Shown here piece after piece: positions 10,785 through 39,096 of a DNA stretch of 64,000 bases. The notes beneath the pieces are model-generated. The model searched no databases and had not been told where the DNA came from. It was given only the letters and a program-made list of their open reading frames with translations. The position numbers and the translations under genes are program-made. The stretch's first letter is position 1. Every line of letters begins with the position of its first letter. Source of the DNA: Staphylococcus sp. (GTDB lineage Bacteria > Bacteroidota > Bacteroidia > Bacteroidales > Muribaculaceae); the NCBI GenBank assembly GCA_023665865.1, contig JAMPDC010000001.1:1195444-1259443 (forward strand), in the 5' to 3' direction.

Positions 10785-10834
10785 TGTTTGATCTGTGCTG
10801 TAAGATATGAAATGAAGGAATGAATATTCGGCTG

Positions 10835-10842
10835 CAAAATTA
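10835..10842 (-). promoter_or_regulatory. -7 box for pyrE
   Basis: TAATTTTGCA on the minus strand, about 50 nt before the chosen pyrE ATG. It supports the shorter start. Confidence 0.65.
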
Positions 10843-10954
10843 GAATTTCTATCGACGAATTGCAACTTTTTTTAGTTTACGTTTCTTAAAACCATGAGGA
10901 TTTTTTTTGAGAGGGCAGGGGAGAGGGCCGGTGACTGTGGCCGGAAAGTGACAG

Positions 10955-11030
10955 AATAAAAAAAGGATGTCTCACGACATCCTCTTTCCTTTTTTAAACC
11001 TTTATCTTAATCTAATACTATGAAAAACAC
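10955..11030 (-). ncRNA. Small RNA gene, copy A of a three-member family
   Basis: Read on the minus strand: a -7 box (11036-11043), a ~30-nt leader GTGTTTTTCATAGTATTAG..., an A-rich stretch, then a hairpin AGGATGTC / GACATCCT (10964-10971 with 10976-10983) followed by a T run. This is promoter, short transcript and intrinsic terminator in about 90 bp, with no coding potential. It shares the leader TTTTCATxGTATTAGATT and the loop-closing GTCGTGA with copies B and C. It is the most diverged copy. No gene in the convergent or divergent position explains the terminator. Confidence 0.7.
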
Positions 11031-11035
11031 ACATG

Positions 11036-11043
11036 CAAATGTA
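11036..11043 (-). promoter_or_regulatory. -7 box of small RNA copy A
   Basis: TACATTTG on the minus strand, a perfect TAnnTTTG, placed about 6 nt before the conserved transcript start. Confidence 0.65.
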
Positions 11044-11214
11044 AGGATTATATTTGAAATATTATGCACAATGTAAGCCTATTTAACTATTTTTAGGTAA
11101 AAAGGGTGCAAAAAAGGTGGAATTTATGGTTTGAGGAGTTGTTTTAGGTAATAAAATCGGACAAAATTACCTCCGGATGGAGGCGCGGGGTAAAGAAATT
11201 GTCGGTTTTATGCG

Positions 11215-11222
11215 TAAATTTG
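11215..11222 (+). promoter_or_regulatory. -7 box for the HAD phosphatase gene
   Basis: TAAATTTG, 39 nt before the ATG at 11261. An oppositely oriented TAATTTTG at 11162-11169 could also fire towards the small RNA. Confidence 0.55.
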
Positions 11223-11260
11223 TGCTCTCGTCTCCATAAAAACCGACAGACTTTTAGAAA

Positions 11261-12097
11261 ATGAAACAGCTATTTGTAAGTGATATGGATGGGACACTGC
11301 TCGGTCCCGACAGTAGAGTCAGCGCAGAGAGCGCCCGCATCATCACCAGTCTGTCCCGTCGAGGGATTCCGGTGACTGTGGCCACGGCACGCACGCCGGC
11401 TACCGTGGCCGGGCTTCTTGCCGATACGGAGACGATAGTCCCGGCGATTGTCATGACCGGCGCCGCTCTATGGGACCGAACGACCGGACGCTATCTTGAG
11501 CCGGAGTTTCTCGATGGAGCGCTTCTCACCACTGTTTTGGAGATTTTTTCGGAGGAGGGTGTGGATCCGTTTGTTTATGTGCTTGACGACGAAGATTTTC
11601 TCAACGTCTATCACGGGACTGAGATGAATGTGTGTGAGCGCAGGTTTTATGAAGACCGCCGAGGGCTGTCGCGCAAACGCTTTGTGTTGACCGATGCAAG
11701 CAGAGTGTCTATACCGCGGCCCGGTACAATCCTGATTTTCGGGATGGGTGATGTATGTCGGATTGAGGCCGCCGCTGAGCGTTTGCGGGCAGTCGGGGGG
11801 CTGTCGGTGTCCTGCTACCGCGATATTTTCAACCGCGACGTTGCCAATATAGAGATTTTTGGCGCGGGTGTGAGCAAGGCTAATGCCATCAGGCGTCTTG
11901 CTGCGCGGATCGGCGCTGAAAGGGTGACGGTCTATGGCGATAATCTTAATGATCTGCCTATGTTTGAAGTTGCAGACGAGGCTGTGGCAGTCGCAAATGC
12001 AATGCCAGAGGTGCTTGCCAAGGCTGACCGAGTCATCGGCAGCAATGCTGAGTCGGCTGTGGCTAAGGATATACTGGCATTGGCAGGAGGAGAATAG
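11261..12097 (+). CDS. HAD-superfamily Cof-type phosphatase
   Basis: 278 residues. Motif I is DMDGTLL near residue 8, motif II is VTVATART, and motif IV is YGDNLNDLPMFEVA. The lysine of motif III is in SKANAIRRL. Together with a mid-protein cap these match the Cof (type IIB) sugar-phosphate or nucleotide phosphatases. The substrate cannot be read from the sequence. The gene is convergent with zupT, with an 8-nt gap. Confidence 0.9.
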   Translation: MKQLFVSDMDGTLLGPDSRVSAESARIITSLSRRGIPVTVATARTPATVAGLLADTETIVPAIVMTGAALWDRTTGRYLEPEFLDGALLTTVLEIFSEEGVDPFVYVLDDEDFLNVYHGTEMNVCERRFYEDRRGLSRKRFVLTDASRVSIPRPGTILIFGMGDVCRIEAAAERLRAVGGLSVSCYRDIFNRDVANIEIFGAGVSKANAIRRLAARIGAERVTVYGDNLNDLPMFEVADEAVAVANAMPEVLAKADRVIGSNAESAVAKDILALAGGE

Positions 12098-12105
12098 AGC
12101 GTCGG

Positions 12106-12909
12106 CTATAGAATAAGAAGGGTGAGTGCCATCAATGCCATGCCTGTTATGACGCCGATAAGCGAGATGTGGTGGTGACCGAAGCTCTCTGCGCCCGGGA
12201 GGAGTTCGTCAAACGCTATGTAGACCATGATTCCGGCCACGATGGCAAGGCAGATGGCATTGACTACCGGCGACCAGAAGGGGAGGAGAAAGGCCATGCC
12301 GACGAGGGCGCCGACGGGCTCGGCGAGGCCGGATAGGAGTGACAGACGCAGGGCCTTGCGGCGGTCACCTGTGGAATGGTATATCGGGACTGAGACAGCG
12401 ATACCCTCGGGGATATTGTGGATGGCGATTGCGATGACGATAGGGAGTGCCACTTCCAGTCCGTCGAGACAGGAGATGAAGGTCGCCATGCCTTCTGGGA
12501 AATTGTGGATGCCGATGGCCACGGCAAGCATGGTGCCGGTACGTTTCAGATGGTGGTGGTGTGATCCGGTGTTGAGTTCCGCCAAAGTGTGTGGTTCATG
12601 GGGGTTTTCATCCTCGGGTACGAAATAGTCGATTACGGCGATCAGGGCTATGCCTCCGAAAAATGCAAGCAGCATGTAGGCTTCCGCCACACGGTCGGAG
12701 AAAACGGTGGCGAGGCCGCTGACAGCTTCAGGCATGAGCTCCATGAATGAAATGTAGACCATGACGCCGGCCGAAAGACCAAGAGCGCCGGCAAGCATGC
12801 GGGTGTCGGTGCTTTTTGTGAAAAAAGATATAAGCGCCCCGATTCCCGTCGATAGACCTGCTACGATGGTGAGGCCCAGTGCTATAAGTATTGTTGATAA
12901 ATCTGGCAT
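12106..12909 (-). CDS. zupT: ZIP-family zinc transporter ZupT
   Basis: 267 residues from the ATG at 12909 (MPDLSTILIALGL). Eight membrane segments are visible. The two metal-site helices carry GIHNFPEGMATF and AIHNIPEGIAVS. The first long loop is acidic and histidine-rich (EDENPHEPH, then a His run), typical of ZupT. It imports zinc and other divalent metals into the cytoplasm. The frame continues upstream to 12996 but crosses the tRNA-Arg promoter, so the shorter start is preferred. Confidence 0.93.
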   Translation of the reverse strand: MPDLSTILIALGLTIVAGLSTGIGALISFFTKSTDTRMLAGALGLSAGVMVYISFMELMPEAVSGLATVFSDRVAEAYMLLAFFGGIALIAVIDYFVPEDENPHEPHTLAELNTGSHHHHLKRTGTMLAVAIGIHNFPEGMATFISCLDGLEVALPIVIAIAIHNIPEGIAVSVPIYHSTGDRRKALRLSLLSGLAEPVGALVGMAFLLPFWSPVVNAICLAIVAGIMVYIAFDELLPGAESFGHHHISLIGVITGMALMALTLLIL

Positions 12910-12985
12910 AGTCAAAATTACAGATTTTTTTTGAAAGTGGGCGAAAAAATATCTTAAAAAATTTGGCGGATTAATCCGAAAGCAG

Positions 12986-12993
12986 TAATTTTG
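12986..12993 (+). promoter_or_regulatory. -7 box for tRNA-Arg
   Basis: TAATTTTGCA, 12 nt upstream of the tRNA 5' end. Confidence 0.7.
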
Positions 12994-13005
12994 CACTCAC
13001 AAAAC

Positions 13006-13079
13006 GGCTCATTAGCTCAACTGAATAGAGCATCTGACTACGGATCAGAAGGTTACAGGTTTGAATCCTGTATGAGTCA
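13006..13079 (+). tRNA. tRNA-Arg(ACG)
   Basis: 74 nt. Acceptor stem GGCTCAT / ATGAGTC, D stem GCTC/GAGC, anticodon stem TCTGA/TCAGA with loop CTACGGA (anticodon ACG), T stem ACAGG/CCTGT with TTTGAAT loop, and discriminator A. CCA is not encoded. Confidence 0.97.
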
Positions 13080-13090
13080 CAAGGTTAAGG

Positions 13091-13130
13091 AAAAAGCCAT
13101 TCCGAGTTGCGATTCGGGATGGCTTTTATT
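13091..13130. terminator. Bidirectional terminator after tRNA-Arg
   Basis: AAAAGCCATTCCGA / TTCGGGATGGCTTTT stem with T runs on both strands. It can serve tRNA-Arg (plus) and the small membrane protein gene (minus). Confidence 0.85.
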
Positions 13131-13135
13131 TTTTC

Positions 13136-13315
13136 TTATTTACGGCGGCGTTCAAGCTGTGCCACTGACTTGTTTAGTTTTTCAACCTCGTTGAGGGTGA
13201 TGAGAGCGGCGGCGAGAGTGGCGACCTGAAGGGTTGCATGGAGAATGCAGTGGAGGATCTTGTGCTTTTTGCAATTTGAGCTGTTTTCGTGCTCGTGGCG
13301 AGAGAAAATTTCCAT
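13136..13315 (-). CDS. Small membrane-associated protein of unknown function (59 aa)
   Basis: 59 residues starting at the ATG at 13315 (MEIFSRHEHE); the frame also allows a 78-residue version. The N-terminus is His/Lys/Cys-rich. A hydrophobic segment (residues ~25-42, ATLQVATLAAALITL) follows, and the tail is charged and helix-prone (NEVEKLNKSVAQLERRRK). It ends at a good terminator. I do not recognise a family. Such one-helix proteins are common in Bacteroidales, and the chance that this is not a gene remains. Confidence 0.5.
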   Translation of the reverse strand: MEIFSRHEHENSSNCKKHKILHCILHATLQVATLAAALITLNEVEKLNKSVAQLERRRK

Positions 13316-13459
13316 AATATAAATAGTGTGTGTTTGAAAAATAGATAAATGTTTACCGGAGGCAATTTTCATTGCCTGTCAACTTCATAACGCAAGGGGC
13401 ATAGAAAGGGTTCGGGGGCTTAACATTTATTGTGTGCCATTACATTAAATATATTGGAT

Positions 13460-13528
13460 GAAAAAACAACAGGCTGTCATCACGACAGCCTGTTGATCTT
13501 TAACCTTAAATCTAATACCATGAAAACA
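13460..13528 (-). ncRNA. Small RNA gene, copy B of a three-member family
   Basis: Minus-strand unit: -7 box at 13534-13541, leader GTGTTTTCATGGTATTAG then ATTTAAGGTTAAAG, and a perfect 12-bp stem CAACAGGCTGTC / GACAGCCTGTTG (13467-13478 with 13484-13495) with a 5-nt loop and T tract (13461-13466 as A on the plus strand). Predicted length is about 68 nt. It is nearly identical to copy C over the leader and the upper stem. It lies between the 59-aa gene and gpmI in a gap of about 420 bp. Confidence 0.75.
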
Positions 13529-13533
13529 CAGTG

Positions 13534-13541
13534 CAAATATA
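13534..13541 (-). promoter_or_regulatory. -7 box of small RNA copy B
   Basis: TATATTTG on the minus strand, identical to the box of copy C, with the surrounding GTTACTATATTTGCACTG also shared. Confidence 0.7.
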
Positions 13542-13665
13542 GTAACTTGTCTTTATAACCGCGGCCGGATCAAAAAGGTTCATGAAAAGATGAAAAATTT
13601 TTCAAAAATTATTTCAAAAGTATCCGCAGCCGGATTGCGGACTCTGGAAAACGGAGTGGATAACT

Positions 13666-13696
13666 TTTGTTTTTCGTAGGATTTTCTCTAATTTTG
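13666..13696 (+). promoter_or_regulatory. gpmI promoter
   Basis: TTTG (13666-13669), a 19-nt spacer, then TAATTTTG (13689-13696), matching the full Bacteroidetes -33/-7 promoter. The ATG is 37 nt downstream. Confidence 0.75.
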
Positions 13697-13733
13697 CACT
13701 CTTGAACAACAAACTTACAATTTCTATAACATC

Positions 13734-15248
13734 ATGGCAAAGAAAGCATTGTTAATGATTCTTGACGGATGGGGCATCGGTAACCATACCAAGAGCGACG
13801 CCATCTCGTCAACACCTACCCCCTATTGGGATTATCTTGTGAAAACATATCCCCACAGCGAGCTTCAGGCATCAGGCGAGAATGTCGGTCTCCCCGACGG
13901 TCAGATGGGTAACTCGGAAGTGGGTCACCTCAATATCGGCGCCGGCCGCGTGCTCTATCAGGATCTCGTGAAGATCAACAAGGCATGCAAGGACGGTTCA
14001 ATCCTTGAAAATCCTGAGATCGTCAACGCATTCACTTACGCCCGTGACAATGGCAAGGCAATCCACTTCATGGGCCTCACAAGCGACGGCGGTGTTCACT
14101 CCTCGCTCGACCACCTCTATGCTCTCTGCGACATTGCGAAGCACTATGGTCTTGAGAAGGTCTATATCCATTGCTTCATGGATGGCCGTGACACCGATCC
14201 CCGCAGCGGCAAGGGCTTTATCGAGGCTCTTGAGGACCATTGCGCCAAGTCGACCGGCAAGATCGCCTCGATCATCGGACGCTACTATGCGATGGACCGC
14301 GACAAGCGTTGGGAGCGCGTCAAAGTGGCCTACGATCTTCTCGTGAAAGGTGAAGGCAAGCAGGCCGCCGACATGGCCGCTGCCGTTCAGGAGAGCTATA
14401 ACGAAGACGTGACAGACGAATTTATCAAGCCGATCAACAATTCGACTGTCGACGGTACCATCAAGGAGGGCGACGCTGTCATCTTCTTCAACTACCGCAA
14501 CGACCGTGCGAAGGAGCTCACCATCGCTCTCACCCAGCACGACATTCCCGAAGCCGACATGAAGGTCATACCCGGTCTCCAGTATTACTGCATGACTCCG
14601 TATGACGCATCGTTTACCGGCGTACACATCCTCTTCCCGAAAGAGAATGTCGAGAACACCCTCGGAGAATATCTCTCGAGTCTCGACAAGAAGCAGCTTC
14701 ACATCGCCGAGACCGAGAAGTATGCCCACGTGACTTTCTTCTTCAACGGTGGCCGCGAAGAGCCCTATGAGGGAGAGGAGCGCATCCTTGTCGCATCGCC
14801 CAAGGTCGCAACCTACGATCTCAAGCCTGAGATGAGTGCTTATGAGGTCAAAGATAAACTCGTCGAGGCTATCAAGAGCGAGAAGTTTGACTTCATCGTT
14901 GTCAACTATGCCAATGGAGATATGGTCGGTCACACCGGAGTCTACGAAGCGATCTGCAAGGCCGTGAAGGCTGTCGACGAGTGTGTGAAGGATACCGTTG
15001 AGGCAGCCAAGGAAGCCGGCTACGAGGTCATCATCATTGCTGACCATGGCAATGCCGACAACGCCATCAACCCCGACGGCACTCCCAACACTGCCCATTC
15101 GCTCAACCCGGTTCCCTGCATCTACGTCACCGAGCGCACTGATGCCAAGGTCGAGGACGGCAAGCTTGCCGACGTCGCTCCGACAATGCTCAAGATCATG
15201 GGCCTTCCCCAGCCTAAGGAGATGACCGGACACGCTCTCATCAACTGA
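13734..15248 (+). CDS. gpmI: 2,3-bisphosphoglycerate-independent phosphoglycerate mutase
   Basis: 504 residues. The N-terminal metal/serine region is [10 protein letters not shown], followed by the nucleophile region [17 protein letters not shown]. Further family landmarks are [36 protein letters not shown] and IIADHGNAD. The enzyme interconverts 3- and 2-phosphoglycerate in glycolysis, using two metal ions. It begins an operon: its TGA overlaps the ATG of sdaA by one base. Complete and strongly recognised. Confidence 0.98.
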
Positions 15249-36679: not shown

Positions 36680-38158
36680 TCAGCTCTCGGTCGATTTCGG
36701 GAGGGTGAAGATGTATTCCAGACCACCTTTCGATCTGTTGCGTACCGAGATGGTGCCGCCGAGCGAGACGATTGTGCTCTTGACGATCGGAAGGCCGAGA
36801 CCTGTGCCTCCCATCTTGCGGGAACGTCCGGTGTCGACACGGTAGAAGCGCTCGAAGAGGTGCGGGATGTGTTCCTCTGCTACACCGTTGCCGTTGTCAT
36901 AAAAGCTGAATACGAAGAAGCGGTCGTTTTCCGAGATTAGCTTCATGCCGATCTCCGTGCCGCCCGAGTGGAGCGCGGAGTTTTTGATGAGGCCGCAGAT
37001 CATACCTTGAAGCAGGCTGTAGTTGCCGGTGGCATTACATTCGAGCGGGATGTCGAAGCTGAATTTCATGTCGCCGGCGAGATTGTTGGCCTGGAGATCG
37101 TAGTCGATCTGATAGACGAGGTCGTGCATGTTGACGGGCTCTACGGCGATCATATCGGCGCCGTTTTCGAGGCGGGTCATCGTCGAGACATCGTTGAGGA
37201 GGGAGGTGAGTCGTTCGACGTTGGAGAGCATGCGCTCCAGGAAGCGTGTGCGGGTCTCTGCATCCATGTCAGGATCGCTGAGTATCGACTCGAGGTAGCC
37301 TCTGATGATTCCGACCGGGGTCTTGATCTCGTGGTTGATATTGTTGGTCATCTGCCGTGACAGGCGCGCTTTCTCCTCGATGGCATGGACGGCAATCTTG
37401 CGCTCCTTCTGGATGGCTTCGAGGGATCGGTTGCGCTCGTGGTAGAAGTTGAGGATTTCGCGTGAGATGTCGCCGAGTTCATTTCGCGGGAAGTCAAGGT
37501 CCTCGCGCACCTTTTTGCCGGCCGAGGCGTTGTGGGCAAACTCGCGCAGCAACACGATGTTGCGTGAGAGCACACGGGTGGAGTAGTAGGCTATGAGCAG
37601 GGTGACTACGAGGGCTCCGAGGATGATGAACCAGACAGTCTCGTCGATGTCAATGGCGTCGTGGACGCTCTCGTTGTATGGCATGGCGGTGAGCACATCC
37701 AGACGTCCGTCGTCGCTCTGCACCTTTGAGAAGAAGTAGACCTGGTCGTCGTCGCGCACGACCATGCGCTCGCCTTGGGCGCCGTAGGCCGTCGGGGCTA
37801 TCTGAAGGTCATGTTTGCGTATGTCGACATCGTTCATGTCGAGCGGCACCGGGACTCCGAGCGAATAGTAGAGGCGGCCGTCGCGGTAGACGCTGACGCG
37901 GACGCCCTCAAACATAGAGCCTTGGAAAAACTGCTGGATGAAGGAGAGAAATGTGCGCAGGTTGACGTCCTGACGGTAAGCCTCGAGAATACGGTTGTCG
38001 ATCAGGTCGAGCTCGGCGCTGAACACCTGGGCGCGATAGTTGGCCTCGCGCTTATACTGGTAGAAGATGATGAATCCGAAGACGATGCAGAGCACTGTCG
38101 CAATCGGAAGGAAGAGTCGCCACTGATAGTTAATCCTTCTCTTTAAAGCCATAGCCAA
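36680..38158 (-). CDS. Sensor histidine kinase
   Basis: 492 residues (start at 38158; MALKRR at 38152 is an equal choice). Membrane helices near residues 14-32 and 173-192 flank a periplasmic domain of about 140 residues. The dimerisation helix has MTNNINHEIKTPVGI (phospho-accepting His). The ATPase domain has LIKNSALHSGG (N box), DNGNGVAEEHIPHLFERFYR (G1/F) and GGTGLGLPIVKS (G2). It overlaps the response regulator gene by about 29 nt, so the two form a two-component system. Signal unknown. Confidence 0.93.
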   Translation of the reverse strand: MAMALKRRINYQWRLFLPIATVLCIVFGFIIFYQYKREANYRAQVFSAELDLIDNRILEAYRQDVNLRTFLSFIQQFFQGSMFEGVRVSVYRDGRLYYSLGVPVPLDMNDVDIRKHDLQIAPTAYGAQGERMVVRDDDQVYFFSKVQSDDGRLDVLTAMPYNESVHDAIDIDETVWFIILGALVVTLLIAYYSTRVLSRNIVLLREFAHNASAGKKVREDLDFPRNELGDISREILNFYHERNRSLEAIQKERKIAVHAIEEKARLSRQMTNNINHEIKTPVGIIRGYLESILSDPDMDAETRTRFLERMLSNVERLTSLLNDVSTMTRLENGADMIAVEPVNMHDLVYQIDYDLQANNLAGDMKFSFDIPLECNATGNYSLLQGMICGLIKNSALHSGGTEIGMKLISENDRFFVFSFYDNGNGVAEEHIPHLFERFYRVDTGRSRKMGGTGLGLPIVKSTIVSLGGTISVRNRSKGGLEYIFTLPKSTES

Positions 38159-38849
38159 AACCTAAGCGAGTCTCGATGTTGTTGCCGTAACGTCCGATTT
38201 TCTTACGCAGGCGTGTGATGTTTGTGTCGATAGTACGGTTTGTCACCACAACATCATCTGCCCAAACATGGCGAATGATCTCCTCGCGCGAATAGATGCG
38301 GTTGCGTCTGCGCAGGAAGAATGAGAGTATTTCAAGCTCGGTTTTTGTGAGGGCTATTTTCTCTTCGTCAAGATAGCAGGTCTTGTCGTTGGGATCGATG
38401 CGGAGACCCTGGTAGACGATCTGGGGCTCAAGGCCGTCGTCGACTACTGCCGGGGCTGCCTCGCGCGCCCTGCGGGCTATCTGTGCGCGGCGGAGCACGG
38501 CGTTGACACGGGCTATCACCTCGCTGATCTTAAACGGTTTGGTGATATAGTCATCGGCTCCTATGTTGAGGCCCATGACGGTGTCGTCCTCTCCATCGAG
38601 GGCTGAGCAGAAGATGATGGGGACTTCTTCCATTGCGTTGGAGTTGCGGAGGCGTTTGGCAAAGTCAAAGCCGCTCAGTCGCTCCATCATGATGTCGACG
38701 ATGAAGAGGTCGTAGGGGGTGAGGTCCATTTCGAGTGCCTCTTCTGCGCTATAGGCCGTGTCTACAAGATAGCCTTCTTTCTGTAGATTATATTTTAGAA
38801 TCTCGCAGATTGATTCTTCGTCATCTATTACTAACAGGCGTGTGCTCAT
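38130..38849 (-). CDS. OmpR-family response regulator
   Basis: 239 residues. Receiver domain: acidic Asp10, phosphorylation site Asp52 in LFIVDIMMERLSG, Lys104 in DDYITKPF. The C-terminal winged helix is of OmpR/PhoB type (LTKTELEILSFFLRR, then TNRTIDTNITRLRKKIG). It is the upstream partner of the overlapping histidine kinase. RprY of Bacteroides is one possible relative, but I cannot assign the orthologue from sequence alone. Confidence 0.93.
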   Translation of the reverse strand: MSTRLLVIDDEESICEILKYNLQKEGYLVDTAYSAEEALEMDLTPYDLFIVDIMMERLSGFDFAKRLRNSNAMEEVPIIFCSALDGEDDTVMGLNIGADDYITKPFKISEVIARVNAVLRRAQIARRAREAAPAVVDDGLEPQIVYQGLRIDPNDKTCYLDEEKIALTKTELEILSFFLRRRNRIYSREEIIRHVWADDVVVTNRTIDTNITRLRKKIGRYGNNIETRLGFGYGFKEKD

Positions 38850-38985
38850 ATCGGTATGATTATGTACGTTTTCGAGATTTTGTCGCTAAATTACAACATT
38901 TTTTCGTGTCTCTGTGTTAATGATTGTTAAACCGAGGTTTCGCGTGAACTTTTCAGCCTCCCCGCGGTTTTAAAGACATAGTTAC

Positions 38986-38993
38986 TATATTTG
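38986..38993 (+). promoter_or_regulatory. -7 box of small RNA copy C
   Basis: TATATTTG within GTTACTATATTTGCACTG, identical to the promoter of copy B. Confidence 0.7.
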
Positions 38994-38999
38994 CACTGT

Positions 39000-39066
39000 G
39001 TTTTCATGGTATTAGATTTAAGGTTAAAAAAATAATAGGCTGTCGTGATGACAGCCTATTGTTTTA
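39000..39066 (+). ncRNA. Small RNA gene, copy C of a three-member family
   Basis: Plus-strand unit: leader GTGTTTTCATGGTATTAG then ATTTAAGGTTAAA, identical to copy B, followed by an 11-bp stem AATAGGCTGTC / GACAGCCTATT (39034-39044 with 39050-39060) and a short T run. Base changes in the lower stem relative to copy B (AATAGG/CCTATT against AACAGG/CCTGTT) keep pairing, so they are compensatory. It lies between the response regulator gene and the ABC ATPase gene. Confidence 0.75.
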
Positions 39067-39096
39067 TATGTCCGGATGGAAGTGCCGGGCCTCCCT

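Follow-up and report, generated by a model that had tools for sequence, protein, structure and literature searches.

Which genes are the three short, similar elements found in this stretch of a Muribaculaceae genome, and how might they be controlled and act? The stretch, called the window here, comprises 64,000 nucleotides of a host genome of 2.69 Mb (88.75% complete). A sequence-only reading had placed the elements at 10955-11043 (minus strand), 13460-13541 (minus strand) and 38986-39066 (plus strand), where all three were located again, and had taken them for small RNA genes. They are referred to below as copies A, B and C.

Identity of the three copies

The window was searched with the covariance models of all 4227 Rfam families, a comparison suggested by the sequence-only reading. 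Three matches to RF04319, the FopS family, were obtained, each full length (positions 1-71 of 71) and above the gathering score of 56 bits: copy C (38998..39068, plus strand) scored 75.2 bits, copy B (13460..13529, minus strand) 67.6 bits and copy A (10955..11030, minus strand) 60.4 bits. E-values of 3e-9, 1e-7 and 2e-6, calculated for the 64 kb window, exclude chance. Copies A, B and C are members of the known FopS small RNA (sRNA) family. The earlier statement that nothing annotated explains them does not hold, since RF04319 does; the suspicion that they belong to a paralogous sRNA family, perhaps one of Bacteroides, was right, that family being FopS (PMC11697453). The host genome contains six FopS copies, three in the window and three elsewhere.

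All window copies are intergenic: copy A lies between pyrE and an HAD-type hydrolase gene, copy B between a tRNA-Arg gene and gpmI, and copy C between phoB and an ABC-type ATPase gene. The box anticipated as TAnnTTTG is the -7 box, TACATTTG in A (11036..11043, minus strand) and TATATTTG in B (13534..13541, minus strand) and C (38986..38993, plus strand). A common leader had been claimed, and GTGTTTTCATGGTATTAGATTTAAGG is indeed matched exactly in B and C; copy A is divergent, with one base changed (CATAGTATTAG, the CATAG variant), one additional T and a 5-nt insertion ahead of AAGG. The hairpin is likewise closed by the same sequence, GTCGTGATGAC, in B and C, and by GTCGTGAGAC in A. The alignment of B with C spans about 104 bp at 92% identity and starts within the upstream element described below; copy A is 72% identical to B (90 bp) and 76% to C (87 bp).

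In the predicted folds, all three copies form a hairpin followed by a T run, shortest in C, as expected from the terminators attributed to them. A terminator consensus scan of positions 10800-13800 found the terminator of copy B (terminator-like hairpin 13495-13467) on its own strand and the hairpin of copy A solely on the opposite strand. A single-stranded R1' seed and a Rho-independent terminator are present in the folds of B and C; in copy A, with its insertion, the leader is partly paired. The compensatory changes reported between the stems of B and C were seen by eye as one full (C-G to U-A) and one half change (C-G to U-G).

Comparison with FopS of Bacteroides

In B. thetaiotaomicron, 14 FopS RNAs with canonical promoters are described, and bile salts raise their levels (PMC11697453). 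Pairing of R1' with SusC-type mRNAs at their start region blocks translation, as shown for FopS-10 and susC(BT_3983) with compensatory mutants; the RRM-1 protein RbpB binds FopS RNAs and relieves the block (PMC11697453). According to the same source, FopS occurs in the Bacteroidaceae and one phage, strong sub-diversification is not seen apart from a few seed SNPs, and induction is left to an unknown regulator. PhoB, phosphate, Muribacul- and tandem never occur in its main text, and no report of FopS for the Muribaculaceae was found in the literature searched on this family and small RNA. The window copies resemble the B. thetaiotaomicron genes in sequence/structure model, R1' seed, terminator hairpin, multicopy organisation and the -7 box, with six copies in the host as against 14.

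Upstream element and promoter classes

Upstream regions were compared in a sample of FopS loci chosen mainly from the list of FopS-positive genomes, mostly Muribaculaceae. The 125 regex matches were reduced to 123 by removing two non-FopS sequences and to 122 by keeping those with sufficient upstream sequence and no repeats. These were divided by leader into 5-T (51), AG-5T (33), 4-T (34, including B and C) and other (4) genes.

Copy B is preceded by a GAAC-N18-GTTATAA element (13553..13581, minus strand) and copy C by a GAAC-N17-GTTTTAA element (38946..38973, plus strand), both recognised by pattern match; copy A has no such GAAC..GTT element. In its strict form (GAAC-N17/18-GTTnTAA type) the element precedes 27/34 4-T genes, 3/51 5-T genes and 0/33 AG-5T genes, with a background of 3/700 windows. 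The GAAC-N16/19-GTT arrangement stands at a fixed distance in the 4-T class (27/34 strict, 32/34 relaxed). FopS genes bearing the element are termed class III here; the three 5-T genes that have it come from other Muribaculaceae genera and look like class III by eye.

The canonical sigma-ABfr promoter was checked in the same genes. The -33/-7 pair, sought with a loose pattern, was found in 1/34 4-T genes compared with 30/51 5-T and 28/33 AG-5T genes, and the -7 box in 17/34, 49/51 and 31/33, respectively. Of the promoter claimed for each copy, the -7 box is seen in all three; B and C are without the -33/-7 pair and, unlike FopS of B. thetaiotaomicron, have a GibS-like element in its place. They form a promoter subclass, credibly new beyond the main text of PMC11697453.

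The strict element has 53 sites in 17 genomes of the host's genus, compared with 24 for the reversed pattern; 15 of these sites are FopS genes by eye, and the remainder is 38 versus 24. Ten genomes from other families of the order showed no enrichment (20 sites versus 42 reversed). Copies B and C are the only two matches in the host genome. Sites in the genus also lie upstream of thioredoxin, FKBP-isomerase and malate dehydrogenase genes, each in two genomes (one gene per pair was checked against Pfam), and of DUF4332 genes; some have no fitting gene nearby.

Comparison with GibS and probable mode of transcription

A -30/-10 element of this kind, with GAAC and GTT 17-18 nt apart, is common to B, C and the two above-cut-off GibS genes used for comparison (a sub-cut-off match, L354, was not counted). 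The B. oleiciplenus GibS gene (149 bits) has GAACTTTTTCTGTGGGGCTGTGTTATATAA just upstream, its two boxes being 17 nt apart; in the second gene (128.9 bits) the spacing is 18 nt. GibS is driven by the non-canonical promoter PM2, and PM2 promoters in B. thetaiotaomicron are tied to oxidative stress and stationary phase (PMC7366714). One proposal is that two ECF sigma factors, SigW-1 and SigH-1, recognise them; for SigW-1 the motif did not reach significance (PMC12596196). Judged by its likeness to the GibS upstream sequences, and not by the published PM2 logo, the GAAC..GTT element may be a PM2 promoter.

The R1 seed that GibS (Rfam RF04182) shares with all three copies, together with the upstream element that it shares with B and C, could mean that the copies are GibS orthologues; the GibS model also matches copy A (40 bits) and FopS loci in other genomes. 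This reading is largely refuted by the scores, since the best GibS match in the host genome stays at 43.8 bits where the cut-off is 115, and the FopS matches are above cut-off and full length. The RNA length of about 70 nt, compared with about 142 for GibS, also speaks against it, and we consider it highly improbable.

GibS and class III also differ in that the GTT is 11 nt from the 5' end in the two GibS genes and mostly 29-32 nt before the GTG in class III, so that a start from the element would add about 20 nt to the RNA. The stretch between the putative start and the GTG is well conserved. The seed of copy C would be more paired in such an extended RNA, with a predicted pairing of 0.55 compared with 0.12 in the canonical RNA.

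Since the GibS-like element replaces the housekeeping -33/-7 pair, B and C are most likely transcribed by an ECF-type sigma factor. It could be argued that they are read from the housekeeping -7 box only, GAAC..GTT being an activator site or a relic: 17/34 4-T genes keep this box, TATATTTG is at the usual distance in both copies, and a start of the PM2 type would extend the RNA by about 20 nt beyond the canonical FopS 5' end, with the effect on the copy C seed given above. However, the other 17 4-T genes are without the box, the -33/-7 pair is retained in one of the 34, GAAC and GTT are fixed in 27, and the element also precedes protein genes. Transcription of B and C from the -7 box only is rather unlikely in our judgement, and an alternative sigma factor is preferred, with additional housekeeping transcription possible.

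An autoregulated ECF gene was considered and rejected: at the 15 sigma-70 region-2 loci of the host only partial GAAC..GTT matches were seen, with one divergent candidate (L343), and no gene was preceded by a clear, correctly oriented copy of the element.

A second FopS-like multicopy element was observed in three genomes of the host's genus (L330 with two copies, L326 and L331). Upstream it has GAAC-GTTATAA or GAAC-GTTGTAA; its conserved leader, TTACTTTTTCCATTGCAAGAAATGTGATAATGATTGGTTTATTA, differs from that of FopS and carries a short insertion in one copy, and a terminator-like hairpin that varies follows. It has no credible Rfam match, was not found in the window or the other loci examined, and is possibly an undescribed sRNA family.

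Conservation of structure

FopS stems differ widely among genes. Pairing is kept in 99%, 95% and 100% of cells in the three leader classes, compared with 62, 58 and 67% for shuffles; these percentages lean towards structure because the register was chosen for each sequence so as to maximise pairing. Four of the 33 distinct 4-T genes were dropped from this analysis, as no five-pair stem was found by the script.

Short palindromic sequences can also spread as mobile repeats that are not transcribed. Such an origin would fit the near identity of the dispersed copies B and C, the tandem arrays of three or two copies in relatives (G002, G008 and G018) and the occurrence of FopS-like DNA in a few phage records and 14 viral contigs. 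It would also fit the synteny of gpmI: among the best 80 gpmI loci, with flanks of variable length, the leader regex detected no FopS at the A or B positions, and the single FopS gene found was about 6 kb from gpmI (L081). In these 80 loci the nearest relative of the gpmI product, the phosphoglycerate mutase encoded beside copy B, is from a Porphyromonadaceae MAG (90%), followed by Muribaculaceae bacterium Isolate-104 (88%), a 'Bacteroides sp.' MAG (88%) and a Muribaculum MAG (87%); the assignment of the host to the Muribaculaceae is based on these relatives. Against mobile repeats stand stems that vary with pairing retained (register chosen per sequence), a nearly invariant seed, the retention of promoter and terminator, and the transcription and function of the family in B. 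thetaiotaomicron (PMC11697453). We give this explanation very little credence and regard the copies as sRNA genes.

Linkage to phoB

Copy C is divergent from phoB, a response-regulator gene (38130..38849, minus strand; NCBIfam NF053854, 317 bits, cut-off 270), and differs in this linkage from FopS of B. thetaiotaomicron. A PhoR-like sensor histidine kinase gene follows downstream of phoB (36680..38158, minus strand; best NCBIfam model NF053855, at 353 bits short of the 500-bit cut-off). A phoB-like start, recognised as an N-terminal motif by a short regex, lies opposite 19/38 class III loci, in 14 of the 24 genomes with fetched class III loci; the count may be a lower bound because many flanks were only 200-300 nt long. 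The same start was found opposite 1/80 other loci, and that one (L277) is class III by eye. Tandem class III arrays with a period of about 207-227 nt stand beside a phoB-like gene in three relatives, with three (L207/G002), three (L208/G008) and two (L209/G018) copies. The simplest history would be an old phoB-linked FopS gene that gave rise to tandem copies and to dispersed ones such as B.

Between phoB and copy C lies a direct repeat, GTTAA-N5-GTTAA (38916..38930, plus strand), which looks like a response-regulator site. Repeats of this 10-bp spacing are found in many class III genes, with 19 GTTA pairs counted among 34 genes; copy B has none. The host genome contains 18 GTTAA-N5-GTTAA sites compared with two for the reversed pattern, and a second genome 26 compared with six. 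They precede FopS genes of classes II and III and, as judged by eye, envelope-lipid genes, the neighbours read in this way including phosphatidylserine decarboxylase, pdxA and glycosyltransferase genes. The repeat was taken at first for a Pho box because phoB adjoins it; this was rejected, as in the 30 loci read of the 44 sites in the two genomes no pst gene was the nearest frame. A feedback of copy C on phoB was also rejected, pairing with the phoB start being ordinary (rank 0.21 among control genes).

Pairing with SusC starts

Seed pairing was calculated for 80-nt regions spanning the start codon, taken as the first ATG in frame, of 13 of the 15 above-cut-off SusC genes of the host. Two genes with N runs upstream, two shorter sub-cut-off genes and 12 sub-cut-off genes without a closed frame were left out. 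The 13 SusC starts had a median of -16.0 kcal/mol, and 280 other genes one of -12.3 kcal/mol (p=0.004). With 96 signal-peptide-like genes as the reference, p was 0.014. With 56 Met-Lys genes as the reference the excess fell to p=0.07, since ATGAAA is by itself able to pair with the seed; restricting the SusC set to its nine Met-Lys genes gave p=0.015. A difference between medians as large as this came from one of 40 tail-shuffled seeds and a p value as small from three of 40; one of 30 wholly shuffled seeds gave p<0.05. The seed complement occurs with up to three mismatches at 36 sites in the genome compared with 21 for the reversed sequence, six of the 36 being FopS genes. The SusC gene of the window ranks in the middle for seed pairing. 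Taken together, these predicted energies lend modest support to pairing of the seed with host SusC starts.

Distribution of FopS and RRM_1

FopS was detected at E<=0.001 in 45/61 genomes (41 above cut-off): in all 37 Muribaculaceae genomes (27 of the host's genus, including the host, and ten of other genera) and in 8/24 outside this family. More than one match was obtained in 36 of the 37. In an order-wide sample, at least 90/392 genomes have FopS, at least 77 of them above cut-off; these counts are lower bounds because 12 candidates per genome were scored with stricter filters.

The host differs from the B. thetaiotaomicron circuit in that no match to RRM_1 (PF00076), the domain of RbpB-type proteins, was found in its 88.75% complete genome, a search that a strongly diverged RRM would escape. 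The detector recovered Bacteroides ihuae as a positive control. RRM_1 was found in 17/61 genomes, including 1/37 Muribaculaceae and 0/21 of the Muribaculaceae genomes listed as at least 90% complete, and in 260/392 genomes of the order-wide sample. With FopS counts as lower bounds, the 392 genomes comprise 52 with both, 38 with FopS only, 208 with RRM_1 only and 94 with neither, and show no positive association (p=0.057). At E<=1e-6, 43 of 78 FopS-bearing genomes of this sample have RRM_1 and 35 do not. RbpB antagonism is a trait of the B. thetaiotaomicron circuit and not of the RNA model, so that membership in FopS stands. With FopS in 37/37 Muribaculaceae genomes and RRM_1 not found in 36 of them, nor in 38/90 FopS-bearing genomes order-wide, it seems that the RNAs can be maintained where RbpB is lacking, and in the host they would work without it.

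FopS-like DNA was also observed in 17 plasmid-collection records, three Parabacteroides and one Prevotella among them, seven of which cover at least 80% of the query. Ten phage records matched, one being Bacteroides phage BX-TP2 (PQ571285.1, 44785-44847) and five being Enterococcus phages that match the hairpin half only; the viral contigs were from IMG/VR (L394-L407). At a locus of another family (L153, G169) three FopS-like leaders lie within about 720 bp, one apparently without a terminator.

Proposed mechanism and significance

We consider it probable that the copies encode trans-acting FopS sRNAs that silence SusC, with B and C under an alternative sigma factor. Three RNAs of about 70 nt would be made, each with an intrinsic terminator 3' of the seed. 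The 5' seed would be complementary to ...AUCUAAUACCAUGAAAA..., i.e. the start codon and its surroundings, and would most likely pair with the mRNA starts of SusC-like transporters, blocking ribosome entry as in B. thetaiotaomicron. This mechanism is assigned to the host because of the work on Bacteroides, target pairing adding weak support. Copies B and C would most likely be read by an ECF-type sigma factor when cells are stressed or in stationary phase; their subclass is known so far from the Muribaculaceae.

In enterobacteria, OmrA/OmrB and RybB/MicA are stress- or two-component-controlled sRNAs that depend on Hfq and repress outer-membrane proteins, including TonB-dependent receptors. FopS would work alike, as a functional analogy with no sequence relation claimed. 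It differs in the need for Hfq, classical sRNA chaperones being described as absent from Bacteroides (PMC11697453).

As a tentative extension, which we hold to be possible rather than probable, FopS would have split in the Muribaculaceae: a branch founded beside phoB and spread by tandem and dispersed duplication would have acquired a GibS-type stress promoter, placing a SusC-silencing seed under alternative-sigma and response-regulator control without the RNA-binding antagonist known from Bacteroides, as a Bacteroidota counterpart of RybB/MicA and OmrA/B. The sequence-only observation was correct: the copies belong to a known RNA family, for which no earlier report from the Muribaculaceae was found in the literature searched, and show a credible new promoter subclass in a host where the known antagonist was not found. 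Control of glycan uptake by FopS has been described for the Bacteroidaceae with RbpB as counter-player; the RNAs are seen here in the Muribaculaceae, another gut family, where 36/37 genomes show no RRM_1 gene. The exchange of promoters would offer a testable answer to the question of FopS induction left by PMC11697453.
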